Shown here one piece after another: positions 14,161 to 34,293 of a DNA stretch of 36,482 nt. The stretch is taken from IMG/VR virus record IMGVR_UViG_3300018080_000363, positions 1 to 36,482 of that record; one strand, written 5' to 3'. The notes under the pieces were generated by a model that searched no databases, was not told where the DNA came from, and worked only from the letters and a program-made list of their open reading frames with translations. The position numbers and the translations under genes were made by a program. Each line of letters begins with the position of its first letter. Position 1 is the stretch's first letter. This stretch comes from a virus.

Positions 14161-17100
14161 TTAATAATTTAGAAAGTCTGTGGCAGTTTCTTTTATATAA
14201 TTAGTGATAAGTTCATTATCCCAAAGTTCATTCCAGCCTTCTTTTACATCCTTTGTAAACTTTTTCCATTTCCCGCCAATATTAATAATTAAATTATCTA
14301 TCTTATATCCATCTACGCCCGCCAATAACGGTTTATGCTTATGAACTAAAGGAGTCATTACAATAGGCTGGCGTTCCTGGGTCCACTGAATAATCTTATA
14401 TCCACCAGCAAACGTGGCAGCTAGCCCAACGGCTCCCGCAGCCAATCCAAGTGTTGCTGTTGCCAATGCCGCAGTAGCTACCGCAGCTCCAGAAATTGCT
14501 CCAGAAGTTTTGAATAATTGATTGGCGACATGCCACATTGCATCTGTTGTAGATAGTGATGTCCAGTCGTTATATGTAACAACTAAATCTGGTTTAATTT
14601 CTGTAATAAATCCTACATCTTGAGAGAAGATATGAGTAACCCTTTCAACCTCGATAGGCCCAAACATATCATTATAAGAATCATATAAATAACAAATATC
14701 ATATGGTTTTATTTTAGGATTACCTGTTATAAGAACTTCCCCTTTATACATGTCTCTTAAAGAACGCATTAAAAGCCCGCTAGCATAACGACGGGCATAG
14801 TAATCGCCATAACAACTGTAATAAGTTGCTTTCATTATTCGCGTATCTTTATCTTCTATATTGTCATCGAGTTTTAATCTTAATACCTCTTTTTTATCCT
14901 CGATAGTACTAATAATTTCATCTTGTTTCTTTGCCTTTTGCAATGAGTCTCCAGACGGGTCCTCAAAATAAGTCAAATCTATAGCATTAAATACTCCAGA
15001 AGCAGAAGCCCTAATATGATTCGCAACAATATGATTATCTGAAGTAATAGTCCAATATTTTCTAAATGGTCTAAATCTATCCATTTTCCCGAGATACATC
15101 CACTCAAGTTGTTCCTTGTATCTGCGCTTAATTTCTTTATCTATTACATCTTCGTTCGCATATCCAAAACTTAAAGAGCTAAGATAAGATCTATAAGATA
15201 AGGTTCTTCTTGATTCTGCCGATGCATATCTTGTAGCCAAGTTATCAATAACTTCTGATGTTGCTTTTTCGTTTAATTTAAGACTTCTACTCCAATAGCT
15301 ATGAGAAGGAGGGCCGAAAAACATTGTATATCTTTGTTCATATGGAACCGGAAACGCAACAAATCCGGGATGACGCAATTCCATTTCTTTAAAAATATCC
15401 CAAATAGTTACTCTATATGGATGATAAACCCCGTTACTTCCTAAAGCATCCCATACAGCTTTTGCGGTATCCATCACCGAACTTAACCCTAGCCAGTCCA
15501 AGCATAGATGAATTTGGTCGCTTATATCTCCGTATTCGCTACCATATTTTGGCGCAAAAATATTATCATCTTGCGGTTTATTCAGAAATGTCCACTTACG
15601 TAAAAGACTATTTTTGAGTTCCTTAATAAGACTATCTAATATACCATGTCCACCGCCTTGCCTATTAATTTCCTGCCTGATTTCTTCTGGAGAATAATTA
15701 GCCGTACGACTCCATCTTCCAAAATGTGTAACTTCTGGAGAACAAATCATAGTACTTAATAATTCTTGCGTTGTTTCGTATACCTCTTTTTCAAAAGAAA
15801 CTCCTTTTAATTCCTGTACTAACTCTACACCATAACTTTGACATACTAGCTGTGCTAAATAATTATTTTCTTCATTAAAAACATCGACTTCTACAACTTG
15901 GCCATTAAATACTGTTTCTAGTTTCGAAGGATTATTTGAATACCCTAATCTTACTTGTATTTTTGAACCTTCTACAACAACTAATTTGGAAAAAGGGTTT
16001 TCCTGATCTGTATTTACCTTTGACGGATCAAATTTTTCGACTATTCTTGAACTTTTTTCTTCATCAGAGTCATTAGAGTAGGATAAGAAATCTAATTCTC
16101 CATTCATATTGGCAATAGTTATTACGCAAAGATCAGCAGCTATTTTTCTACTTCTTACAATACGAATATCTTTAACGGCTGAATAACTATAAAAATCATC
16201 AAAATTTCTAACCGTTGGGCGCTGGTCGTATAACCCCGTATCGTCTTCAATAAAATAGATTTTAAATGTGGGGAATGCTCTAGCCATTCTAAATGTATCT
16301 TCTTCATATGTAGCCCAGCTTCCGAAAAGTGCATCGTCGAAATCGTTATTTGCTTTTTTTGAAGCTTCTTCGGAATATTTATCTATAGAATTTACACCAA
16401 ATGCTGCATCGGAAATATTATCGGGAAGAGTATTCCATCTAAATGGTTGCAATTCTTCTGACATATTCTTGTTTTTGCCTAAAACTTTTTCTAACTTTTC
16501 CTTATTTATTGTCCATTCTCTATCGATTGGGAATTCGCCATCATGAACAAAGGCTGCTGATATCATTTTCCCTGCTCGTTCATCAGAAAAAACTTTTTTC
16601 TTTCTATCGTCATCATTTATGACATTTTTGTTAAAAGAAATAATGCCTTCTGAATATGTTTCTTTTGTAAATGTTTCCTGCATAGAGCTAATTGTATTTA
16701 ATTGCAATGTTTTCGCCTGCTTAAACCATTGGTTCATTTCGGCAGTATGAATATTTCCTAGCTGTCCGTCTGTAGATTGATTCCAAAAATAAAAATCAGG
16801 ATCAGTATCTAAGACTTCCTTTGTATAAGGGTGTTCTGGTAAATCAAGATCTGGATATGTAGGTAAACCGTCCTTTAAGAATCTAAAATCATTGTAGTAT
16901 CTCATATGTATTGGCCTAAATAATGGCATTCCTTCTAATTCTGATAAAATAATTCCTTTAGCTTGGCCCTGCCATTTTTTTAATATTTCAACAAACATAG
17001 AATCTCTTTCGGACACAGAAGTAGACATGTATTCGCTTGAAACTAAACTGCCAGGTATGCCTAATTCTTCAATTTTATCAACTGGCAATCCAGTATTAGT

Positions 17101-19797
17101 AAGCGAGCCATAGATTACTACAGCAAAGAGAATGCCTGCATATATGATACATACCCGCTTAAATGCTTCATTGAATCCGCTTAATTTTTCGCCAGATAAA
17201 ACCGTATTTATTATACCTTTTAGCATGTCTTGTAAATCCCAATTTCTAGGCGATCCAAAATGACCAAAATAAATTATTGGGAGTTTTCTCTTTTTATAAA
17301 ATCCCTGTAATGTTAACTCTAAATCCCCGCCTTGTTTATCGCCAAAAAGTCTACTAAACCTCTTTTTTAGTTGTTCCTTTCTAAGTTTTTCTGACCTTTC
17401 TTTGTTTCTTATAGCTTCGCCATGATACCAAGGATTTTCTAGATTATTTATTGTTCTAAGCTCATCTTCAACCTCGAAAGCAAAATTAAAGAGTCTTGCT
17501 AGAACACTATCAGAAGGGTCTACTTCGTGCCATAATTCCTTCATCTCCCCTAGGCTTATAAAGTTTTTTCCCCCGGGCGGTACTGGAACTTTGGCAGAGG
17601 AACCCCAAGTAGAACGTATGTAATTCGGTGCATACGTTCCAATGTGGGAAACTATATTGGTATAGAAATATTTAGCTATCTCTACACTTCTGTTAGTACG
17701 AACATATTTTTCCTGACGCAATTCAGGGACTTCTGTTCTTTTAAAACCCGTAATACGCAGTGTCACATTATAGGTATCAGGCAAACCCTCTATATTTTCA
17801 GATGTTATACCCTCTATAATCCCCTGATTGAAGCCTACTAGGTTAAATATAGGATTCTTGATGTTTATTACAGATGCCTCTCGAGACTGACGACTACCTC
17901 TAGAATTTGCTTGTAGCATATTGAATACTTTGTTTAGTTCAGCCAATTTCCTATCTGTAACTGCCACAAAGCTTACAATGGCATCCATATCCCTTCCGCC
18001 AAGGAATTGCTGAGTATAAAATTCATGTCCTAATATAGGAAGACTAGCTATAGTATTATGTTTAGATATCGCTATATTCTGTATAACTAGCTCTTTATTT
18101 GAAGCATCAAGAAAAAAGCTTTTATCTTTATAGAAAGATAAATACGTACTATTACTTGAAAAATTATCTAGTTCCCAATTTTCTCCGCTAGAGACTGTAT
18201 CATTTAAAGCTTTCTTTAACTTTTCTTTTGCAAACTCTAATGCTTTTTCATTACCTCTAGTAAATAGTTCATTCTTAGCTCCAGAAATAATCGCTTTTTT
18301 CCTTGCATTCCTGATCTCACGAATACTCATTCCTGGTCTAATTTCTGCATTCCCGCTAAACTTGCCTTCATACAATGTTTGTAACGGTTTGTAATCAAAA
18401 TGCCAACCTTCTACAAAGCTAGTACCGGCTGCCGTTCCGTATACAATTTTATCATTGTGTTCAAAATGACGGAAAAATCCCCCATGTAACTCGTTTAATG
18501 TTCCTTTTCTTTTTGCAATAGAATATCCAAGGTTATACCATCCATATTTCGAACCGTTATCTACAAGCCATTTCCAATGTTCATAATCAGTTTTACGATA
18601 GTCCAAATCAAATGCCAATCCTACCTCATGCCATGATTGTCCTGGAGGATTAGCTGTATGATAACCCCTAGCTTGAAATTGTTCTTTGCTTATTTCCCAT
18701 AACTTCTTTTGTTCTTCAAAAGTTCTAAAACAACTATTAAGTCTTAATGGAAATCGTCCGAATTCCTTATAAAAGGCTTCCATCATTTTATATAATTTAT
18801 CAGCTGCTTCTTTCTGTAACCTGTAATTTACACTACTCCTAAGCCTTGAAACATATTTTGTATCTAACTCGACTAATGCACCGGGGCCGTCCAACATAGA
18901 AAGTAATTCTGATTGTTCAATACTCGAAAGCGTTTTATATTCTTTATATAGAAAAGATAATCCAGCATTAAATTCTCCGATTGGCTGAAATAATTTCTCC
19001 TTTTTGTTTATATATTCAATTAAGGGTTTTGACCGTTCTGGCCATTTTACTGGAGCAGTTAGAGCCGTAAGTGGTTCAATTTTTTTAGATAAATTATTAT
19101 CTGCCACATCTCTTGGAACCTTTACGTCTTCGGCACTTGTCTCGTTTGGACGAACATCCTTTTGAGAGGTTTCTGTTTCTTCGGCTATCCAATTTTCTTT
19201 ATAAGCAAAATCAACCGAATATGGTTTATAGTTAAACCATAATAAGTCTAAATCTGCAACTAATACAGTAGGATAACCTGGGTCTGTTCTGACAACTATA
19301 TTAATTAACGAACAAGCCATTGTATCCATAATAGGATCGTCATTCTCGTCGCCAGATCCGATGGTATTATTCCTTATAAATTGGTTTTCAATAAAAACGA
19401 ATGGTGTTGCTTCAAATGACGCCAGTAATCTTCTTAGGCCTAAATTAATAGCTTTTATACCAACAAAATATAAACTAAAATTAATACGGATATTACTTCT
19501 TCCAGTTGGTACTTTTTGTATCCCCGAAGTACGTAACGTATGTAGTCTTTGGTTTGCGCTTTCTCTCTGGATCCTAATATAACTAGGAGGGGGCACGTCA
19601 CGAGGAACAGAAAAAACTATATCATTAATTTGTAAAGTATCAGTTCCTTCTGCAATCCTATCTATTTCATAACTTATTTGGCTTGAGCGAATTTTAGAAA
19701 TAAGATTCTCGTCATCACTCAAGTAAGCTTCGGTAACTGATCCTATATCGGCTTCTTCGGGCGAAATAACAGATGATTTTTTATTATAAATAGCCAT
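14161..19797 (-). CDS. Giant baseplate hub protein with embedded M15 (VanY-like) zinc peptidase
   Basis: This 1878-aa protein overlaps the preceding gene by one base (TAATG) with GAAAGG upstream. Residues about 100-195 and 605-690 look like two related beta domains (RINFSLYFVGIKAINLGLRR; AIVSFVAVTDRKLAELNKVF). Between them, residues 330-470 form an M15 peptidase: SWHEVGLAFDLD gives zinc ligands His390 and Asp397, and VEGWHFDY gives catalytic Glu463 and ligand His466. M15 enzymes cleave peptidoglycan stem or cross-link peptides. Residues 1200-1330 (KLVVVEGSKIQVRLGYSNNP, VFNGQVVEVDVF) resemble the gpD/gp27 hub fold. Hydrophobic segments lie at 882-898 and 1766-1803. I infer the central hub, with a peptidase that opens the cell wall at infection. 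Confidence 0.85.
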   Translation of the reverse strand: MAIYNKKSSVISPEEADIGSVTEAYLSDDENLISKIRSSQISYEIDRIAEGTDTLQINDIVFSVPRDVPPPSYIRIQRESANQRLHTLRTSGIQKVPTGRSNIRINFSLYFVGIKAINLGLRRLLASFEATPFVFIENQFIRNNTIGSGDENDDPIMDTMACSLINIVVRTDPGYPTVLVADLDLLWFNYKPYSVDFAYKENWIAEETETSQKDVRPNETSAEDVKVPRDVADNNLSKKIEPLTALTAPVKWPERSKPLIEYINKKEKLFQPIGEFNAGLSFLYKEYKTLSSIEQSELLSMLDGPGALVELDTKYVSRLRSSVNYRLQKEAADKLYKMMEAFYKEFGRFPLRLNSCFRTFEEQKKLWEISKEQFQARGYHTANPPGQSWHEVGLAFDLDYRKTDYEHWKWLVDNGSKYGWYNLGYSIAKRKGTLNELHGGFFRHFEHNDKIVYGTAAGTSFVEGWHFDYKPLQTLYEGKFSGNAEIRPGMSIREIRNARKKAIISGAKNELFTRGNEKALEFAKEKLKKALNDTVSSGENWELDNFSSNSTYLSFYKDKSFFLDASNKELVIQNIAISKHNTIASLPILGHEFYTQQFLGGRDMDAIVSFVAVTDRKLAELNKVFNMLQANSRGSRQSREASVINIKNPIFNLVGFNQGIIEGITSENIEGLPDTYNVTLRITGFKRTEVPELRQEKYVRTNRSVEIAKYFYTNIVSHIGTYAPNYIRSTWGSSAKVPVPPGGKNFISLGEMKELWHEVDPSDSVLARLFNFAFEVEDELRTINNLENPWYHGEAIRNKERSEKLRKEQLKKRFSRLFGDKQGGDLELTLQGFYKKRKLPIIYFGHFGSPRNWDLQDMLKGIINTVLSGEKLSGFNEAFKRVCIIYAGILFAVVIYGSLTNTGLPVDKIEELGIPGSLVSSEYMSTSVSERDSMFVEILKKWQGQAKGIILSELEGMPLFRPIHMRYYNDFRFLKDGLPTYPDLDLPEHPYTKEVLDTDPDFYFWNQSTDGQLGNIHTAEMNQWFKQAKTLQLNTISSMQETFTKETYSEGIISFNKNVINDDDRKKKVFSDERAGKMISAAFVHDGEFPIDREWTINKEKLEKVLGKNKNMSEELQPFRWNTLPDNISDAAFGVNSIDKYSEEASKKANNDFDDALFGSWATYEEDTFRMARAFPTFKIYFIEDDTGLYDQRPTVRNFDDFYSYSAVKDIRIVRSRKIAADLCVITIANMNGELDFLSYSNDSDEEKSSRIVEKFDPSKVNTDQENPFSKLVVVEGSKIQVRLGYSNNPSKLETVFNGQVVEVDVFNEENNYLAQLVCQSYGVELVQELKGVSFEKEVYETTQELLSTMICSPEVTHFGRWSRTANYSPEEIRQEINRQGGGHGILDSLIKELKNSLLRKWTFLNKPQDDNIFAPKYGSEYGDISDQIHLCLDWLGLSSVMDTAKAVWDALGSNGVYHPYRVTIWDIFKEMELRHPGFVAFPVPYEQRYTMFFGPPSHSYWSRSLKLNEKATSEVIDNLATRYASAESRRTLSYRSYLSSLSFGYANEDVIDKEIKRRYKEQLEWMYLGKMDRFRPFRKYWTITSDNHIVANHIRASASGVFNAIDLTYFEDPSGDSLQKAKKQDEIISTIEDKKEVLRLKLDDNIEDKDTRIMKATYYSCYGDYYARRYASGLLMRSLRDMYKGEVLITGNPKIKPYDICYLYDSYNDMFGPIEVERVTHIFSQDVGFITEIKPDLVVTYNDWTSLSTTDAMWHVANQLFKTSGAISGAAVATAALATATLGLAAGAVGLAATFAGGYKIIQWTQERQPIVMTPLVHKHKPLLAGVDGYKIDNLIINIGGKWKKFTKDVKEGWNELWDNELITNYIKETATDFLNY

Positions 19798-22700
19798 TAA
19801 TACCTTTCTCGAATATCACCTATATTTTGAGCAGTTAACTTTGATCTGTTATCTGAATACCTTATATCAACAGTTGCCCCCGGAGTTAACTTACCAAATA
19901 CATTATACATTGATTCTTGGTCCGGAGCACCCGAGAAACCAGTTTGAGCATTTATCATATAACGTCTTCCTGTTCGCATATTCATTGCAGGAGAAGTTGT
20001 CATATATGTTTCCGGCGAAGACATTCCTGGAATACTCGGATTCCCGTTAACGGACTGTGGCAATGGGAAATTTTCTGGTCTTAAATCTCTACCGGTTGAC
20101 TGAATAGGTCTCGTCATTCCACCAGAAACTCTTTGTGCATATGCACGATTTGCTTCTGTTTCTCTAGATGCTCCAGCTCCTTCTGCAGGAGGTATCATTG
20201 GTTTAGGACTAGGACCTCCCATTAGCATGGATAAAGCAGCCGAGCCAGCAAGACCATATAAAAAGGGCTTTCCAAAGGATCTAGCAACAGACCCAAGTTC
20301 TGTTTTTGCTTTATTTAGGGCACCCATCGCGTTTCTAGCCATTCTTGAGCCAGTTCCTTCTACTGTAGATATCTCTCTCATGGCAGTTGCAGTTAAAAAA
20401 TCAGTTTTTCCGGTTTTGGCCATATTTAACATGGCATTCATCTGCTTGATATCTATCTCGAATTGGCCCCGCGCACCTTTAATCATTTGAGAATACAATT
20501 TACCTTCAACCGATTGTCTAAATTGCTGGCGAGCATTTATTGCCTCAGTCCACATCTTCTCTGGGTTTATACCTGCCATTGTCCAGCTTTGGCCAGCCAT
20601 AGACATTGAAATATCTTTTTCTAATTCTGTACCCATTAATCTACGTGTAGATTCTACCAGCGAACCAACATCAGCATTACGTAAACCATTAATCATTTCG
20701 GCAGCTATATTATCTGATATTGATTTCATATGTTTACCGCTGATAACCTGTTGTTCTAATATTTCAGCCAGGACATTAAATTTGTAAGCTCCTGCCGGTT
20801 TTTGGGTCGCCATAGACATTTTAAGCTCGCTTAAGGCATTTGATAATTGACCGAGTTCCCATCCAACACCCAGGCGTAACTTAGATGAACCTGTAATTAG
20901 TCTATCTATATCTGTTTGTTCTATAATATCTGCAGCATTAGCTGCATTTCTTTGTTTTATAACTTCCCTGATTAGTGAAGATTCAGCCGCAAACTGTCTA
21001 TATTTTTGCGTATATCCACCCGTCCTTAAAGCATTTCTTAATTCCGCATCTGCTTTCTTTGTTCCAATTAATTTTACTATAGCTCTATCGTCATCATGGT
21101 CCATAGCTAAGCCTAATAATGGACTAATATCCGCTTTAAACTCTGATATTCCGGCAACTTTAGAACCTAATCTAACTGTTTCCTCTATTGGTCTTGAAGT
21201 TCTAATAAAATACTCTTCTGCCGACTCTGCGCCTTCCGCTACGCGGGCCCATGCTGCTTGCATACTATATGGGCCTATTAATCCATGGCGCCCCAAGCCT
21301 ACCGGCATTGCTTGTTGACCGACAAGGAATTCATGCATTTGTTTTTTAATAAACTCTATTTCTTTTTCTGTCTGTGCGCTAGCAAGCAGATCTTTGAACA
21401 TATCCTTTGCAGCTGCTCTACTTATTTCTATGGTACCAGGAGCGGCCTCACTATAACGAGTGTCTATAGTAGAAGGTGCTAGAAAAGCAGATCCTGCCAT
21501 CCGTCCACGTAATGCACCTTGCATTCCACCTTCTGATACACCTGCCATAGCATGAGACATTGATTCAAGAATAGAATCACTTAGCTTTTTTGCAGATTTT
21601 TCTAATGCAGCAGCTCCAGCTGTAGTGTCTTTCATATGCTTGGCTGTTCTTACGAAATGGTAAAATGACTGGCTTAATGATTCGGCTGCTGTCTCTCCGC
21701 CAGATAACCTATATAAATCAAGACCACGTACGCTCTTGAAACCGGGCACATATATTTTAGAAGCACCACCAAAAGCTTCAATTGGGCGACCTACGTCGAG
21801 CATATATCCTTGTTTTTTTAGATATCCAGTACCTGCACTAATTGAAATATCTTCTGCTGTTTGCCCTAAGCTAATATCGGCCAATTTGTAATCTGGAGCT
21901 TCAATTGTTTGGCCTGCCATACTAGCTATGGTCCGCTGTATATCTCCCATTTCTTGTCCATAGCCTTTCATAGATCTAGCTATTTCACCCGCAAGCGCCC
22001 TGCTTGCAGGATCTCCATGTGCATATAATTGCATAAATCCACGAGGCTCAAATGTAGCTCTGCTTCCTCCTCCACCAGTATATCTAAAACCACCTACTGC
22101 AGAAGTACTTAGACCGAGAACATACTGAGCACTAGACAACTCTTTATGTAAAGCCTTGGCTGATATTCCCATTTTGGAAGCATTTCTCAAAATAGCTCCG
22201 TACTCAGATTTGGGTAATATTTTTGGCAACATACCTCCAATAGGTCCAAGAGGAAGCCCCCATCTTTTAGCCATACGTAACACATCGGCTTCTGTTCTGC
22301 TAAAGTCTCCAGCCCAATTCCATCCTTCTTCAAGAAACATATTAATTTCTGGAATATATTTTGAAGAAACTTTACCAGCCTGCATAGCATCAGCAGCTGT
22401 CCATGCAAGGGCAGATTGCATTTGCATTCTAAGAAAAGATTGATTTTTTCTTAGCTCATCTGCATATGCAAACCCATCTACAAATCGACCAATATTTGGT
22501 ACGCCTGCATCAGCAGCAACCTTCTGAATAACAGCATCTTCTCGTGCTCGTGTAGTTGCCTTTGTCATACCAAATAATTTTACATACCATCCTGGCATAT
22601 GAGTTTGTTGAATCTGTAATTTTAAAGCAGTACCACCTGCATAATTAAATGGCTCTGCTCCAACTATTTGCTCGGTAAGCCCAGCTGCTTTGGCGGCTGA

Positions 22701-24332
22701 TATTTCCAATCCGCTACCCAATCCATAACCTATACGCTCGCCAGCAGCTAGGGGAATTGCACTTCCAAAAGATCCTTTTCCAATTTGATTTAAGCGTCTT
22801 CGTAATTTAGGAGACATATATTCGGCACCAGATATAATTTCTTCTCTTGTACTCCAGGTATTAAACAAAGGCATTAATTTCTGTCTAATTAGAATTTCTT
22901 CAGCAGCAAGCTGAGATCCCTTTAATGTACTTTCTAATCTTCCACCAGGAACAGCATAAGCCATCATTAGTTGGGGAGATACCTGTCCTCTTCCTACAAC
23001 ATTTTCTTTCCACCAATTTGTTGCTAAGAATGGGATATCTCGTCTGAAAGCTCCGCCCGGACCAAATTGGCTTCTCATTAATTTCGCAGCACCAGTTGTG
23101 GGAGAGTATGGTCTTATTCCTTGTAATGGCCTTCTCTCAATAGGATATACTTCTGGGTTGGCATAAACAGACCTTGGGTCAAAATTAGCAAAAACTTTTG
23201 CTTTGGAAATTGTTTTTGGTGTACCCGTTGGATAGTACATACCTGTTTTATAAAGTCCAGCCATTTCAAGATCTTGTATTTGACTTCCTGCCATCTCCGG
23301 AGCTATTACTATATTAGACTGAATCATATCAATAATTTCTTGACCAGGTGTTTTAAGTGAAGGAGTATATACCATATAGGCTGACATCTTCTGGTTAAAT
23401 TCCATAACTGTACGCTTTATAGATTCTTTTGTTGGATTTGGTTCTGCTAATAATCTTTCGAGCAAACCGCCCCGACCTGTAATTCTTCCCATCTGGAATT
23501 CGCCAAATGTCATTTTGCGTCCGCCAACAAGTATATTCTGTGTCATATAAGAAGATTCCATATGCTGTCCGCTTCTGTATATGCCTTCGGTCAAGGGGAT
23601 ATTCAGTCTAACAGCAGAAGGAAGACCAGGATGAGTAAGTCTTAAGCGCCCCATATAGGTAGGCGTTTGGCCTCCGAACTCATAATAAGACATGCTGGCT
23701 CCCCATTCAGCCGGTATAGCTTTTGTTATTTTTGATGCTTCAAATAAAGTATCGGGAGCCATATGGGCCATATATTCTTCTGATACTCCATATTGACGCC
23801 GCATCCCTGCTAAGATATTCGGGTCTAGCAATTCTCCGGTTGGAGCACCCTGACCAAAAGATTTCATTCGTTGATAAAATACTTTGGGGTCTCCGTATTG
23901 ACCAACTACATTCCTAGCCAAATCAAAAGCTGCTGCAGCCTCTGTAGAGCCGCCAGTAAATCCCGCTCCATAGAGTCCTCGAGAATATCTTTCAATATCT
24001 TGAGGGCTTAAGGCCATTCCTCGCCATAAAGATGCTCTCATTGCTTCGTTGATTTGAGCTTTAATAACACTATTTGGGCCTCCTCGCATATAGCTCATGC
24101 TTGTAGCCATTCTATTAATTCCCTGTGTATAAAAATCGGATGTTGCTCCTGCATAACCAGCAGAAACCATGGCATTTTTATATGCGATTGCATTAGAAGG
24201 CCTGGTAAACCAGCCCTTTGGATTTATCATAGCGCTTCCGCCCTTATAGATATTATAAGCGCCATATCCTGCTCCTGCTGCTACAGGAGCCCAAGTTATC
24301 GAACTTCCAGATGATTCATCTTTGTCGGCCAT
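19797..24332 (-). CDS. Giant Ala/Gly-rich tail protein (tape-measure position)
   Basis: This 1511-aa protein starts three bases after the 1431-aa gene's stop, with only weak GGGATGG upstream, and overlaps the hub gene by one base. It is rich in Ala, Gly and Met. A short hydrophobic patch (VAAGAGYGAYNIY) is near the N-terminus and a stronger one (FLYGLAGSAALSMLM) at about 1357-1371. A Pro-rich linker and a small C-terminal beta segment (TPGATVDIRYSDNRSKL) follow. The middle has many short helices (QIQDLEMAGLYKTG; LSNALSELKMSMATQ) but no long coiled coil. Position between the chaperones and the hub is that of a tape measure protein, but with another giant gene before it the tape could be either one or both. 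No lysozyme or peptidase motif was seen. Confidence 0.75.
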   Translation of the reverse strand: MADKDESSGSSITWAPVAAGAGYGAYNIYKGGSAMINPKGWFTRPSNAIAYKNAMVSAGYAGATSDFYTQGINRMATSMSYMRGGPNSVIKAQINEAMRASLWRGMALSPQDIERYSRGLYGAGFTGGSTEAAAAFDLARNVVGQYGDPKVFYQRMKSFGQGAPTGELLDPNILAGMRRQYGVSEEYMAHMAPDTLFEASKITKAIPAEWGASMSYYEFGGQTPTYMGRLRLTHPGLPSAVRLNIPLTEGIYRSGQHMESSYMTQNILVGGRKMTFGEFQMGRITGRGGLLERLLAEPNPTKESIKRTVMEFNQKMSAYMVYTPSLKTPGQEIIDMIQSNIVIAPEMAGSQIQDLEMAGLYKTGMYYPTGTPKTISKAKVFANFDPRSVYANPEVYPIERRPLQGIRPYSPTTGAAKLMRSQFGPGGAFRRDIPFLATNWWKENVVGRGQVSPQLMMAYAVPGGRLESTLKGSQLAAEEILIRQKLMPLFNTWSTREEIISGAEYMSPKLRRRLNQIGKGSFGSAIPLAAGERIGYGLGSGLEISAAKAAGLTEQIVGAEPFNYAGGTALKLQIQQTHMPGWYVKLFGMTKATTRAREDAVIQKVAADAGVPNIGRFVDGFAYADELRKNQSFLRMQMQSALAWTAADAMQAGKVSSKYIPEINMFLEEGWNWAGDFSRTEADVLRMAKRWGLPLGPIGGMLPKILPKSEYGAILRNASKMGISAKALHKELSSAQYVLGLSTSAVGGFRYTGGGGSRATFEPRGFMQLYAHGDPASRALAGEIARSMKGYGQEMGDIQRTIASMAGQTIEAPDYKLADISLGQTAEDISISAGTGYLKKQGYMLDVGRPIEAFGGASKIYVPGFKSVRGLDLYRLSGGETAAESLSQSFYHFVRTAKHMKDTTAGAAALEKSAKKLSDSILESMSHAMAGVSEGGMQGALRGRMAGSAFLAPSTIDTRYSEAAPGTIEISRAAAKDMFKDLLASAQTEKEIEFIKKQMHEFLVGQQAMPVGLGRHGLIGPYSMQAAWARVAEGAESAEEYFIRTSRPIEETVRLGSKVAGISEFKADISPLLGLAMDHDDDRAIVKLIGTKKADAELRNALRTGGYTQKYRQFAAESSLIREVIKQRNAANAADIIEQTDIDRLITGSSKLRLGVGWELGQLSNALSELKMSMATQKPAGAYKFNVLAEILEQQVISGKHMKSISDNIAAEMINGLRNADVGSLVESTRRLMGTELEKDISMSMAGQSWTMAGINPEKMWTEAINARQQFRQSVEGKLYSQMIKGARGQFEIDIKQMNAMLNMAKTGKTDFLTATAMREISTVEGTGSRMARNAMGALNKAKTELGSVARSFGKPFLYGLAGSAALSMLMGGPSPKPMIPPAEGAGASRETEANRAYAQRVSGGMTRPIQSTGRDLRPENFPLPQSVNGNPSIPGMSSPETYMTTSPAMNMRTGRRYMINAQTGFSGAPDQESMYNVFGKLTPGATVDIRYSDNRSKLTAQNIGDIRERY

Positions 24333-24334
24333 GA

Positions 24335-27300
24335 TTATACCATCCCATGAAATTCAGGATTTGAAGCATAGAGTTTAAGTGCTCGTTTTCTATCATCTTT
24401 TAGGTTAACTTCTACGTAATCTCGGCTATCACCAGAAGGCATTGATACAACTTGTATATTATCTAGCCCTAATACTTCGGCTAGACGAGCCTTCATTTCG
24501 GCTTCACTATACTGTACTTCGCCAGTAACCTTTGCCTCTGATCCTTCAAGATATGGTTTTTGAGCTAATTGTTTATCTCGAGACTGCCATAAATTAAAAT
24601 CATGCATATCTTGCCCGGCCATGTTAACAACTTTTAGCTTAACGTCTTCTAAATCAACTCTTGGGTCAAATCCAACAAAATCAGGGCCAGGTAAAGGATG
24701 CTCGTTAAAGTATTCTTCAAGTTCCTTTCTTCTTGCCCAGTCTGCATAAGATTCCTTTTTATACTTTTGTTTTTCATATTTTTCCATTGATTCGGGCGTA
24801 ACTTCTCTACCTTCTCCAACCCGTTGTTTATATAGGGAATCTAATAATTTCTCTGATTCATTAGTAGAAATACCCATTCTTTTTTCTGCACGAAGAGCAT
24901 TGGCTAACTGTATATTCCACTGTGCCTGATAAATAGGTTTTTGATTAGGAGGTATTATCTCCATTATTTTAGCTCTATCTTCGGTAGATTGGGCGCTTTG
25001 AAATGCAGAAAAATAATCTCTATCCAAGGCCGGTAATGCACTAAAGATATTTTTCCAGGATCCATATGGATTTGTTCCAAATAGAGTAGTACGTTGTTGT
25101 TCTCTAAATTCTTTTGCTGCTTCCATGTCCCCAGCAGAATCAGCAGCCCTTTCTAAAATCTTAGCTTTAACATATTTTAACTTATCGAAATACTCTTCAA
25201 TTTCCCAGCGTTGCCGTACATGCTCTGGAATTTCTTCTGTACCAAACATACGTTTTGTCATCCATGTTGCTGGTCTTATAAAATGTTCTACTGGATGTTG
25301 CCAAAATGCAGCTTCTGTTCCATAAGTCCTGGATCGCTCATATTCTTCAATTGCTGATCTTTGATGAACGAACTTTGACATAGGAGAAATTGGAGTTAGA
25401 TATTCTAATGGAGACTCATGATGTGTAAAAGTTTCCCATAGTTGACCAAGTATTCTTTCGCCAGCATTATACTTGGATGCGTTTGCAAAAACATCATCTT
25501 CTTTGTATTCGGCTATACCCTGACTAACTAATTCTGCTGCTAAATCAGTGCCCTCAGCACTAATTGCTGCTGGCTGGTATGCCCCCTTAGATGTAAGCTT
25601 ATATCTATGGTTCAAATCTTTATGAACATAGACATCTAATGCTGTACCTGGAGTCCCATACTGTTCCAGAAAATCTGACATCATAGCACGCTTTTTTCTT
25701 GTATCGACAGCCATTAGCTTCTCGGCATTTTCACTTGCAATTTGTTCTTTTGCCATTTGAATACCGGAAAGCTTTATAACTCCGTGTTTTTCTGTAACAA
25801 AAGTTCCTGGAGAAATCTGTTCTTTAACATGAACACGCATTTTTTGTAAAGTATCTTGCGTAAACTGATATTCGTTAAAACGTTTTCTCTTTTTCTTTTC
25901 TGATACTTGCTGATTAATCTCTTGTATTTGTGCAATTTGATCTTCTGTTAACAATCCCTGTTTGGCAGCTTTTGCTGCTTCAATTTTTGTTCGCTTAAAT
26001 TCATCACTATACATCGCAACATCAGCTAATATTTTAAATCTATGGAATAACGGATATTCTGCCGGAGTCAGCCCAGCAACATCTGGATTTAAAGCAGAAT
26101 ATCCAGCTCCGGGAAGCCTAATTTCTCCAGAAGGAACCTTTGTAAACGGATCACCATGACGAAAATCTATATAATAGTTCGGACCAGGAAGCCATTCTGG
26201 CATAAGATTCCTTATTGGATTATATAAACCAATTTGCCTTCTACGATGTGGTATAAAACGCCTTATGGGCTCTGTAAGCCCTAAACCGCCACCAAGATCT
26301 AGATCCCAATATTTACGCTCAGCACCATACGCCCGTCTTGCCGATTCAAGTTGTTCATACTGATCAAAATAATCTTGTGTCCCAGTTAAATGTTCTTTAA
26401 TTGCACCATGAACAAAGCCCGTGAGTCCTCTTAATTCGTTAATATTATACATAAAGCGCCCTAGGCTAGATTCCATTCCATGAGATGCTATTGGCGTGGC
26501 CGGAGAAATTCCTCCTATTTCTTTATTTGGTTCACTTAATGCCGCCGTTGGAACTCGTTTCACAATTGCATCAGAAGAAATATTTTCGCCTCCGCCTAAT
26601 AACCATTCTTCTGTATGCATTAAACGAGGCGGTTTAATAAGTTTTCCTATTTGTTGAGTTGCTGGACCGATAAACGGAACGTCTTCAAAATAAGTTCCAG
26701 ATACCGGATATGGTCGTTCATGATAGTATTTTTTCTCCCAATGGTATTTAAAATCTTTATCAAATAGAGCCTTAAATGGATGAAGCATAGGATCGTAAGC
26801 CCAGCGTTCTTCTTCGCTGCCATATAGTGCCTTTGCCCTTGCTTCTGCTCCTGAGCGTAGCAATGCAACTTGATGTGGCCTATAATGGCTTATGCGTCCG
26901 CCTTCCCAAGATGATCTTCCAAATTCCCAAAACCTACCCCTTCTGATAGGTACTTCTTTACGACCAGAATATATATCCTCAAGTTCTTCTGCTGTCTTTT
27001 CCGTACCTAATATTCCAGGAAGAGAACCAGTAGCAAGGCTTGCTGCAAGTGCAAATCCACCCCAAAGGGCTAGGCCCGCCAAACCTGCTTGCCTTCCTCC
27101 ATATAGAAAACCTTTGGTAGCTTTTTGGGTTGCTGTTTCAGCAGCAGGAAAGAAAGCTGCTTTAAACTTAGCCAACGGTCCTTTTGCTAAAGAAGCTGCT
27201 TCAGCAAATTCTGCTTTTCCTTTTTTTAGGAGTTCGCTATATGCCCCATAAATACCAAGACTCTTGGCTTCAGGCGTACCTTTTAGTTTATTAAGTAAAC

Positions 27301-28630
27301 TAAATTTTCTATATATTTGTAAAGGCCAGCTGCCCAGCCAAGCAGCACCAGCAAATCCAGCCACAGTAGAAAGCTTGGTAATTCCAGGCATAAGAGATTC
27401 TTGTTCTTCTGTAGCTCTTGTTAATCCTAGCGGCTCAGAAACATTTTTTGCATAAGAAACATGCCCTCGAGCCCAGAGTTCTGCTATACCCGGAATTATT
27501 CCACGGTCAAATGCCGGAGATGCACCAATCAATCCGCCGATTGCAGCGCCCCATAAAGCTGTTCTTGGGTTTTTACTAATAGCCCCAAGAGCGCTAGCAC
27601 CAATTCCTGCGCCTATTAGACTTGTTCCAAAGCTTGCTTCTTGTCTAGATCTAAGATAGCTGAAATATTCAAACCCCTTAAATGCAGCAGCGATTGCAAG
27701 ACCTTTACCTGCATACCTAAGTAAAGTCTGAGTAGCAGTACCAGGCTTAACCGGCAATCTAAATCCAATATTCTTTTCGGTCCAGGTTAGTGCTCGACCA
27801 ACAACAGGAAATTCATATGCTGCTTCTAATAATCTATTTAATCTACTAATTTGCGAAGCCCAATAAGCTCTAGCATATCTACCAATTACTCTTGTTTTCT
27901 GTAATCGAATAGCTGCTACTTCTGATAGCGGTATACCCAGAACTTTATCTGTATAAGGAGCAGTTACAAACATTCTTTCTGCCTGGGCAGTAGTTCCACC
28001 CGCAGAAGAAAGACCGCTTACTTTGGCATACGCATCTATAAATCCTCTTCCCGCTGAAGAGCCTAGATTTACAGGAAGTGCAGCTCTTGTTAAAGTGGGT
28101 CCTCCTCGTACGCTTGCTTCTCCGAATAATAATCCTGTTCTCCTAAACTCTATTCCACGATGAAAAGCACCGGTAACGGCTAATTCGTTAGGTTTTAGCC
28201 CTAGCATATTAGACGCAAAATGCTGCGCTCTATATCTTGGTGTTCTAGTAACTACACCCGTAACCGGATCAACGACTTCTTCCATAAAGAAGCCACTCGG
28301 CGTAAGTATTCTAGACGGCACGGTACCCGCAGGACTAAATATCTGTGAAAACTGGAATGTTTTAAACATGCCATATGGAGATAACTCTTCGGCATGTCTA
28401 ATTCCACTCAAATAATAGTCCCATATTCTTTTGCCGCCACCAGCAGGAATAAATCCAGCAGCTCCTATTCCGGCAATTGCTCCTCCAAATATTGCCGCAT
28501 TTCTTAACGCATTATTTTGTTGCGGTGGGTATTCTCCGCCAGCCCAGTAAGGATCCGGAGCACCAGGACGTTTATAAGCAGTTCTAAATGTAGTTGGAGC
28601 TGGATATGGAGAATTAAAAATATAAGGCAT
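24335..28630 (-). CDS. Giant tail protein with membrane segments and a degenerate nuclease-like domain (tape-measure candidate)
   Basis: This 1431-aa protein directly follows the tail assembly chaperones, the usual tape-measure slot. Hydrophobic Ala/Gly stretches lie at about 42-62, 336-372, 419-435 and 512-540, as in tape measures that enter the host membrane. Residues about 929-1045 resemble the staphylococcal-nuclease fold: MRVHVKEQISPGTFVTEKHG, VIKLSGIQ, then GTDLAAELVSQGIAEY. The residues that are catalytic in active nucleases appear replaced (the 'DGDT' and 'R-x-x-x-I-D-x-P-E' positions), so it would be structural or binding. No Shine-Dalgarno site lies between the chaperone stop and ATG; a palindrome covers that junction. 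The tape role is inferred from position. Confidence 0.75.
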   Translation of the reverse strand: MPYIFNSPYPAPTTFRTAYKRPGAPDPYWAGGEYPPQQNNALRNAAIFGGAIAGIGAAGFIPAGGGKRIWDYYLSGIRHAEELSPYGMFKTFQFSQIFSPAGTVPSRILTPSGFFMEEVVDPVTGVVTRTPRYRAQHFASNMLGLKPNELAVTGAFHRGIEFRRTGLLFGEASVRGGPTLTRAALPVNLGSSAGRGFIDAYAKVSGLSSAGGTTAQAERMFVTAPYTDKVLGIPLSEVAAIRLQKTRVIGRYARAYWASQISRLNRLLEAAYEFPVVGRALTWTEKNIGFRLPVKPGTATQTLLRYAGKGLAIAAAFKGFEYFSYLRSRQEASFGTSLIGAGIGASALGAISKNPRTALWGAAIGGLIGASPAFDRGIIPGIAELWARGHVSYAKNVSEPLGLTRATEEQESLMPGITKLSTVAGFAGAAWLGSWPLQIYRKFSLLNKLKGTPEAKSLGIYGAYSELLKKGKAEFAEAASLAKGPLAKFKAAFFPAAETATQKATKGFLYGGRQAGLAGLALWGGFALAASLATGSLPGILGTEKTAEELEDIYSGRKEVPIRRGRFWEFGRSSWEGGRISHYRPHQVALLRSGAEARAKALYGSEEERWAYDPMLHPFKALFDKDFKYHWEKKYYHERPYPVSGTYFEDVPFIGPATQQIGKLIKPPRLMHTEEWLLGGGENISSDAIVKRVPTAALSEPNKEIGGISPATPIASHGMESSLGRFMYNINELRGLTGFVHGAIKEHLTGTQDYFDQYEQLESARRAYGAERKYWDLDLGGGLGLTEPIRRFIPHRRRQIGLYNPIRNLMPEWLPGPNYYIDFRHGDPFTKVPSGEIRLPGAGYSALNPDVAGLTPAEYPLFHRFKILADVAMYSDEFKRTKIEAAKAAKQGLLTEDQIAQIQEINQQVSEKKKRKRFNEYQFTQDTLQKMRVHVKEQISPGTFVTEKHGVIKLSGIQMAKEQIASENAEKLMAVDTRKKRAMMSDFLEQYGTPGTALDVYVHKDLNHRYKLTSKGAYQPAAISAEGTDLAAELVSQGIAEYKEDDVFANASKYNAGERILGQLWETFTHHESPLEYLTPISPMSKFVHQRSAIEEYERSRTYGTEAAFWQHPVEHFIRPATWMTKRMFGTEEIPEHVRQRWEIEEYFDKLKYVKAKILERAADSAGDMEAAKEFREQQRTTLFGTNPYGSWKNIFSALPALDRDYFSAFQSAQSTEDRAKIMEIIPPNQKPIYQAQWNIQLANALRAEKRMGISTNESEKLLDSLYKQRVGEGREVTPESMEKYEKQKYKKESYADWARRKELEEYFNEHPLPGPDFVGFDPRVDLEDVKLKVVNMAGQDMHDFNLWQSRDKQLAQKPYLEGSEAKVTGEVQYSEAEMKARLAEVLGLDNIQVVSMPSGDSRDYVEVNLKDDRKRALKLYASNPEFHGMV

Positions 28631-32403: not shown

Positions 32404-34293
32404 TTAAATAGCAGCCAGTGACAGTACCAGCGTAATTTGCCGTAATTCGTACGCAGGAACTAGTGTTAATTCGATAGTTGCGTCACCTTCAACTATTTGA
32501 GCTGGAGTTGCAGTAATATTTAGATCATACCGAGTAATATAGCCGCCTTTTTGTAGCTTTCCTAAGGCCGACTCGATGGCTGTTTGTAAAGCAGCTCTCT
32601 GTGCTCCAGTATTAGGTTCTCCAATAAATGGATCAGCAGCAGCACGGATTGCGTCTACAACGTCTTTTACTATTAATACGGTAGTTAAGCGCCTGTAATC
32701 GCTATCAGATTTAGCTGCAGTAGGAGCATCAGCCACAACAACGCCCTTTGGGCGTTCTCGCAACATAACATACTTAACTCCAGCCAGCTGGTCTTGTTTC
32801 GTGTTATTTATCCTCCATGGTAACCCAACTGCTTCTAATACTTTATTAGTTGGAGCACTTTTGGAAGGTAAAGTTGATACAAAACCTGCATATGTTGGAG
32901 CCACTGTAGCAGTATATCCAAAGCCAGTTGTATCATATGAGTTGTAGATATTACCCCAAGCACCAACAACTGATATATATGCGCCAATATCGATTACAGA
33001 ACCTCCACGATCAGTTTCCTCGGTTCCATCTAGATAGTGATCATCGGTAAGAATAAATCCTCCACCAGCCACACTACTCCTGAAACCGTATTTACCGGCC
33101 ATAAACTTATTACCTAGAAGACCGGTTCCATTATAAGCAGAACTTGAAATTGTCTGATTGCCATTTGAGTCAGTTACGTAAGTAGGTAACTTGCCGATCC
33201 AGTCGTTAACATCAGAAAGCGCTGCCGTGGTAGGAGGTAGCACGCCTATAAATCCATGACATTCAACATTATTTTCTGAATTGACATAACAGAAATCAGC
33301 CAACTGATAGGCAAAGTTTACTTCATGAAAATCAGAAGCAGTTAATACTGTACCATCACAAGTATGGGTAGCGTCAGCACTGCCAGCAGATGGATAAATC
33401 TGCGCTCCACTAAAAACAGGACTTGCTGGATCCGCAGGGAACCACCACCAGAAGTACCATTCACCACCATATTCCTCGGCATAGAACTTACCTAAAACAT
33501 CATCTGTATCTCCCTCGGTTGGATAATCGCTTAATGAAGTTAGTGCCCGCGAAGTAACTTGTGCGGACGTTAAATCTACAACATTAAGATCGTCTAAGTA
33601 TATATCAACAGGGACTACAAGATCAAAGTCGGTATTTTCTAAGTCCTTATATGCCTTAAATAAAAGTTCATATAATTTCATTCGGCTAGGGCCTGTACCG
33701 TCTGTTCCAGCTGTATAAGTAACTGCATAACTTACCGCTCCAACACCTACATTGGCAAAAGTTACGAAGCTAGAAGCAGAACCAATATCGGTACCATTGC
33801 CATCAGGCTCGCCAGAAACATATACTTCACCAAGATCGATTGTCGCTGCAGTATTAGCCCAGCTACGGTCGAATACGGTAATTCCGGTATTTTCGTTTCT
33901 GACAACTAGGCGTTCTGCACTAGCGGTAGCATCAAAATACATTGCATAGTCAGTACCAACACTATCATCTTTGGTATCTGTCTCAATTTTAATTCCACCT
34001 GTAGTAGCAGCAACACCTAAACCTTCAATAGTACAAGCAGTTGCACCAATACGAAATAGGATTATATTTTCAGCACCAGCAGTAGATACTTCATACATTC
34101 CTCGGATTAAACTTCCTGTTGTACCAAAATCAACCGCAGCTTCTTGAGTGCGGCCAACCAGATAGGGGGTCTCAGCAAAACCCTTTGAGGAAGTACCAAG
34201 AACTAGTACTTTAGGAGCACTGCTGGTGGTAAGAATTCTTAATCCACCATCAATTTTTTCGGTATAGACTGCCGGTAAATTAGTATAAGCCAT
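32404..34293 (-). CDS. Contractile tail sheath protein
   Basis: This 629-aa protein begins MAYTNLPAVYTEKIDGG, a typical sheath N-terminus, and ends with the conserved sheath C-terminal domain (about 500-629): LAGVKYVMLRERPKGVVVA, DYRRLTTVLIVKDVVDAIR, 'ADPFIGEPNTGAQRAALQTA', GYITRYDLNITATPAQIVEG and 'IELTLVPAYELRQITLVLSL'. This domain interlocks subunits around the tube and drives contraction. The middle (about 80-480) carries phage-specific beta domains likely exposed on the outside. Two ribosome binding stretches (AAGGAGG, AAAGG) precede the ATG. It is the strongest proof that the phage has a contractile tail. Confidence 0.92.
   Translation of the reverse strand: MAYTNLPAVYTEKIDGGLRILTTSSAPKVLVLGTSSKGFAETPYLVGRTQEAAVDFGTTGSLIRGMYEVSTAGAENIILFRIGATACTIEGLGVAATTGGIKIETDTKDDSVGTDYAMYFDATASAERLVVRNENTGITVFDRSWANTAATIDLGEVYVSGEPDGNGTDIGSASSFVTFANVGVGAVSYAVTYTAGTDGTGPSRMKLYELLFKAYKDLENTDFDLVVPVDIYLDDLNVVDLTSAQVTSRALTSLSDYPTEGDTDDVLGKFYAEEYGGEWYFWWWFPADPASPVFSGAQIYPSAGSADATHTCDGTVLTASDFHEVNFAYQLADFCYVNSENNVECHGFIGVLPPTTAALSDVNDWIGKLPTYVTDSNGNQTISSSAYNGTGLLGNKFMAGKYGFRSSVAGGGFILTDDHYLDGTEETDRGGSVIDIGAYISVVGAWGNIYNSYDTTGFGYTATVAPTYAGFVSTLPSKSAPTNKVLEAVGLPWRINNTKQDQLAGVKYVMLRERPKGVVVADAPTAAKSDSDYRRLTTVLIVKDVVDAIRAAADPFIGEPNTGAQRAALQTAIESALGKLQKGGYITRYDLNITATPAQIVEGDATIELTLVPAYELRQITLVLSLAAI

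Follow-up and report, generated by a model that had tools for sequence, protein, structure and literature searches.

A staphylococcal nuclease-like domain, very probably non-catalytic, within a predicted virion protein of 0305phi8-36/ME3-like jumbo phages

What becomes of a nuclease fold that sits inside a giant phage protein after its catalytic residues have been replaced? This question was raised by a 36.5-kb virus record (IMGVR_UViG_3300018080_000363; the window, i.e. the whole stretch of 36,482 nt analysed here), which carries a contractile-tail gene module. An initial annotation placed a staphylococcal nuclease (SNase) layout with a replaced metal-binding Asp and Arg/Glu pair at about residues 929-1045 of a 1431-aa protein in 'tape-measure position', and suggested that it binds DNA, peptide or a tube partner. 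The module includes genes for the sheath, tube-like proteins, the 1431-aa protein, a 1511-aa protein, a VanY-bearing hub homologue and baseplate wedge/J proteins, with the following main features:

32404..34293, minus strand: tail sheath protein, which puts the locus inside a contractile-tail module
24335..28630, minus strand: 1431-aa virion protein with the SNase-like domain (tblastn and blastp with synteny)
19797..24332, minus strand: 1511-aa protein in the assigned tape-measure slot (0305phi8-36 orf146), by gene order
14161..19797, minus strand: 1878-aa baseplate-hub homologue (VanY peptidase domain)

The gene order of the window (sheath, tube-like, chaperonin-slot, 1431-aa gene, tape-measure slot, hub, wedge) is shared with Acinetobacter phage ME3, Moorella phage MTATph1 and Bacillus phage KLEB27-3. 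Several of the syntenic genes in the ME3 record are annotated as homologues of Bacillus phage 0305phi8-36, for which Hardies et al. (2007) assigned orf146 as the tape measure and orf147 as the hub (PMC2147016). Based on these annotations and assignments, we grouped ME3, MTATph1 and KLEB27-3 with 0305phi8-36. By tblastn or blastp with synteny, the relatives of the 1431-aa protein are ME3_35, MTATph1_CDS0026 and KLEB27-3 gp031 plus gp033. Its gene therefore sits one gene upstream of the tape-measure slot, which is taken by the 1511-aa protein, so the initial placement was off by one gene. We rejected a tape-measure identity for the 1431-aa protein because the tape-measure slot lies directly upstream of the hub gene, and because the structure predicted for residues 531-1431 is globular and helical, unlike the extended, mostly coiled-coil helix of a tape measure. 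Instead, a homologous scaffold and synteny place it in the ME3_35-type pre-tape-measure virion family (the annotation of ME3_35 gives homology to YP_001429636 of 0305phi8-36), and gene order and annotation suggest that it resides in the tail or virion. Tape measures of the 0305phi8-36 lineage diverge fast (PMC2147016), and similarity of the 1511-aa protein to its slot counterparts was not detectable. The VanY D-Ala-D-Ala carboxypeptidase domain occupies residues 326-425 of the hub homologue. The family HMM and an intact-SNase HMM found no SNase domain in the window's hub homologue or in its tape-measure-slot protein.

The architecture of the 1431-aa protein was delimited as follows:

25847..27040, minus strand: helical scaffold N-terminal of the domain, residues 531-928 (AlphaFold2 model of 531-1431)
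26108..26197, minus strand: most conserved motif, PEWLPG..YYIDFRHGDPFTKVPSGEIRLPG, residues 812-841; an insertion at or near it splits some relatives
26057..26089, minus strand: residues 848-858, site of an insert of ~150-200 aa of PD-(D/E)XK type in other family members (absent in the window)
25502..25846, minus strand: pseudo-SNase domain, residues 929-1043 (leave-one-out HMM, profile against PDB SNases, AlphaFold2, Foldseek)
24461..25501, minus strand: helical scaffold C-terminal of the domain, residues 1044-1390 (AlphaFold2 model; kept in domain-less relatives)

The AlphaFold2 model of residues 531-1431 (46 sequences) was a compact multi-helix body with a pTM of 0.82, in which the SNase-like part is the main beta domain. 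Among the PDB matches listed for this 901-aa model, all were SNases; thus, no solved relative of the scaffold was found in the PDB. In L036:8180-9460 and L004:21140-22241 (KLEB27-3 gp031/gp033), two parts of the gene are separated at or close to the most conserved motif. The gap in L036 contains a LAGLIDADG-like ORF, which suggests an intron; a search of both split genes for introns in Rfam gave no match. In L033:6372-8015, the homologous protein is interrupted by an intein with a LAGLIDADG domain.

Identification of the domain depended on its family. The initially described segment (25496-25846) corresponds to residues 929-1045, and its motifs were confirmed in the window: GVIKLSGIQ (IKLSGIQ at 952-958) and GTDLAAELVSQGIAEY (1027-1042). 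Pfam SNase and PHROGs searches with the window sequence alone returned no match, hhalign of that sequence against SNases gave 1.4%, and a single-protein scan of viral contigs recovered no relatives, which were instead gathered from viral and genome contigs by scans guided by alignments. In contrast, the family profile identified the domain: compared with intact SNases in hhalign it scored 97.3%, and the best 60 of 276 PDB matches were all SNases (top E 7e-4). PF00565 matched 8 of 25 family members searched singly. When an HMM was built from the relatives without the window, residues 929-1043 were its top match across all window ORFs (E 1.6e-5), with a domain score of 26.0 bits, whereas the highest of 2000 shuffles reached 9.6; this rules out a chance resemblance.

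Structure prediction agreed with the profile, yielding an OB fold with SNase topology. Using the family alignment, the domain was modelled with a pLDDT of 82.6 (>90 for much of the core), and Foldseek placed the SNase 1f2z first (E 1e-5, probability 1.00). The top 50 PDB matches were SNase or Tudor-SN structures, including Tudor-SN 3bdl (E 1.7e-4); as these are SNase-specific and not OB folds in general, a non-SNase OB fold was rejected. The overall structural match was modest (TM 0.47/0.60, rmsd about 8 A), possibly due to extra helices and a long insert in the model. The best BFVD match was A7KUR9_2, a piece of a long viral protein. Taken from the family profile and the model, and not from the window sequence alone, SNase descent and fold are almost certain.

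Next to this fold, the residues that an active SNase needs have gone. Profile alignment assigned the counterparts of the catalytic and metal-binding set as follows:

25805..25807, minus strand: Gly942, counterpart of metal ligand Asp21
25772..25774, minus strand: Lys953, counterpart of Arg35
25757..25759, minus strand: Gln958, counterpart of metal ligand Asp40
25748..25750, minus strand: Lys961, counterpart of catalytic Glu43
25580..25582, minus strand: Ala1017, likely counterpart of catalytic Arg87, where the alignment is less certain

All five positions (D21, R35, D40, E43 and R87) thus read G, K, Q, K and A in the window, in agreement with the replacements first noticed, and the domain is very probably non-catalytic, judging from these residues. 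None of 81 distinct homologous domains keeps at least three of the five, and 40 keep none. The D21 equivalent is essentially never Asp, the E43 equivalent is Glu in 7/81 and the R35 equivalent is Arg or Lys in 44/81. Residues of the fold are conserved: the Gly of L-x-G is present in 70/81 domains and Ala90 in 67/81. A search of 127 family segments for an intact SNase at this site found none. Since the catalytic set is missing from every homologue, we rejected the idea of a recent decay confined to a single phage. The dN/dS ratio was about 0.08 for L030/L116 and about 0.28 for L021/L032, estimated only from pairs with usable dS, dS being saturated in most others. These sequences indicate that catalysis was lost anciently, because no homologue keeps three of the five residues, and that purifying selection has acted since.

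The domain is an optional module of the family, present in 83 of the 127 segments and missing from 44. Where both flanks could be placed, they lay 109-161 aa apart when the domain was present and 19-42 aa apart when it was missing, and absence was clean in ME3, L015, L027 and others. In a left-flank tree of 85 sequences with weak deep support, nearly every sampled member of a long Firmicute-type clade has the domain; its distribution is patchy in the short clade containing the window. Parsimony gave ~5 gain/loss changes on this tree. A tree of the domain itself set the dead copies apart from intact SNases, together with the degenerate SNase of another ORF in L026/L047 (support 0.94), and grouped the window with L106 and L093 (weak support).

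Other nuclease domains occur in the same lineage. The signature is largely intact in SNase domains of hub or hub-like proteins from ME3 (L133), MTATph1 (L134), KLEB27-3 (L135) and L157 (DGDT, x-PE and Arg in ME3, MTATph1 and L157). Hardies et al. (2007) noted an SNase domain in the BtI1 hub and called its purpose not obvious (PMC2147016). A family member without the pseudo-SNase (L114:3927-9443) has an SNase in its N-terminal part with GIDAPE and YGR, its DGDT motif reading DADT. Upstream of the gene in L026, a separate 399-aa ORF (L026:1514-2710) has an N-terminal SNase (PF00565, E 5.6e-12) whose catalytic motifs are degraded.

A second insert site in the scaffold, equivalent to residues 848-858, is occupied in 16 ORFs. 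Of seven inserts scanned with Pfam, five matched PD-(D/E)XK: those of L034, L089 and L076 passed the cut-off, and those of L125 and L094 gave weaker matches. The motif set H / E / G-x-x-D-A / I-K / Q is common to all seven. Motif residues of this Cas4/RecB-like insert are intact in L034, L125, L089, L094, L118, L076, L086 and L122; by eye, the catalytic residues look degraded in L026/L047, L030/L116, L033, L121 and L088. L109 has a short insert only, at the second site. With two kinds of nuclease-type insert, several of them degraded, the protein family has acquired nuclease folds repeatedly and often inactivated them. It is conceivable, though we regard this as a tentative picture that may well be wrong, that the virion protein serves as a platform with two adjacent insertion sites for modules derived from nucleases (SNase and Cas4/RecB-like PD-(D/E)XK). 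Some of these modules would be intact and would be delivered together with the genome, and others would have been inactivated and put to structural use, the state that the window represents.

We propose that the pseudo-SNase is probably a retained non-catalytic packing or binding module in a conserved helical virion protein. An SNase-type OB fold would have been inserted into the compact helical virion protein of 0305phi8-36/ME3-like jumbo myophages, would have lost catalysis before the sampled lineages diverged, and would thereafter have been kept as a non-catalytic surface for packing or binding. The putative contact is a protein partner (tape measure, hub or tube) in tail or baseplate assembly or in ejection, a role that we favour slightly over its not being so. 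Across the family the domain has a net charge of -1.2 +/- 5.0, and the window copy has +2; this near-zero, variable charge, the lost metal ligands and the globular scaffold together favour protein contacts over DNA binding. Of the partners originally suggested, DNA thus gains no support from the charge, and a protein contact fits better. Tudor-SN offers a functional precedent by analogy only: the metal ligands of its SN2, SN4 and SN5 domains are degenerate, and its SN1-SN2 groove binds Metadherin (PMC5900569).

The same fold could instead bind nucleic acid without cutting it, for example by retaining the leading end of the genome within the tail or by binding DNA in ejection. In its favour, nucleic-acid binding is a general property of SNase and OB folds, several relatives have a PD-(D/E)XK domain that looks intact in the same protein, and the signature is largely intact in the hub SNase domains of related phages. 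Against this stand the charge distribution and the R35 position, which is basic in just over half of the domains, and no conserved basic patch emerged; we consider nucleic-acid binding by the domain unlikely. For the protein as a whole, a nucleic-acid role may apply, as several relatives have intact-looking nuclease domains (hub SNases and the PD-(D/E)XK insert). Less likely still is a passive remnant of evolution, in which the domain would be a neutral insertion that a surface loop tolerates: its patchiness in the short clade and its clean absence from phages such as ME3 would suit such an insert, but dN is far below dS in the pairs with usable dS, the domain occurs in nearly all sampled members of the long Firmicute-type clade and the fold residues are retained. 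An active domain that cuts in an unorthodox way, with a different set of residues, is very improbable, because even though a conserved D-x-T-x-x-T-x-R-A-V motif adjoins the old R87 site in many relatives (replacing D-x-Y-G-R in many of the first 53 sequences), there is no conserved metal-ligand set and the window lacks this motif too, reading KLTSKGAYQPAA.

The retained non-catalytic module that we prefer can be set against known systems. It resembles the SNase family (PF00565, thermonuclease) in fold, by profile and model, in the order of strands and helices and in the fold residues kept, but differs in that the window copy has all five catalytic or metal residues replaced and sits inside a giant virion protein. 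The hub SNases of the same lineage (BtI1, PMC2147016; ME3, MTATph1, KLEB27-3 and L157) are likewise fused into a large tail protein; however, they belong to a different gene, and the ME3, MTATph1 and L157 copies are largely intact, whereas the present copy is dead throughout its relatives. The degenerate SN domains of Tudor-SN (SND1) are also SNase folds without catalytic residues retained for binding, yet they belong to a eukaryotic tandem-repeat protein of RNA metabolism that is not closely related. The 0305phi8-36 'virion structural protein' (YP_001429636) and ME3_35 share gene position and a homologous scaffold with the window protein, although ME3_35 has no SNase-like domain at all. An SNase domain in tail proteins of this lineage was therefore already known from the BtI1 hub; new is the family-wide dead copy in a different, non-hub virion protein, which was not found in the open-access literature searched.

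Together, these results name the fold of one region in a family of large jumbo-phage proteins, the scaffold of which lacks a detectable PDB relative, and show virion-borne nuclease domains to be common in the 0305phi8-36/ME3-like lineage. They point to an enzyme fold that has become a conserved, very probably non-catalytic part of the phage virion. Since intact-looking sister copies exist in related hubs, this step from enzyme to structural part would be directly comparable.
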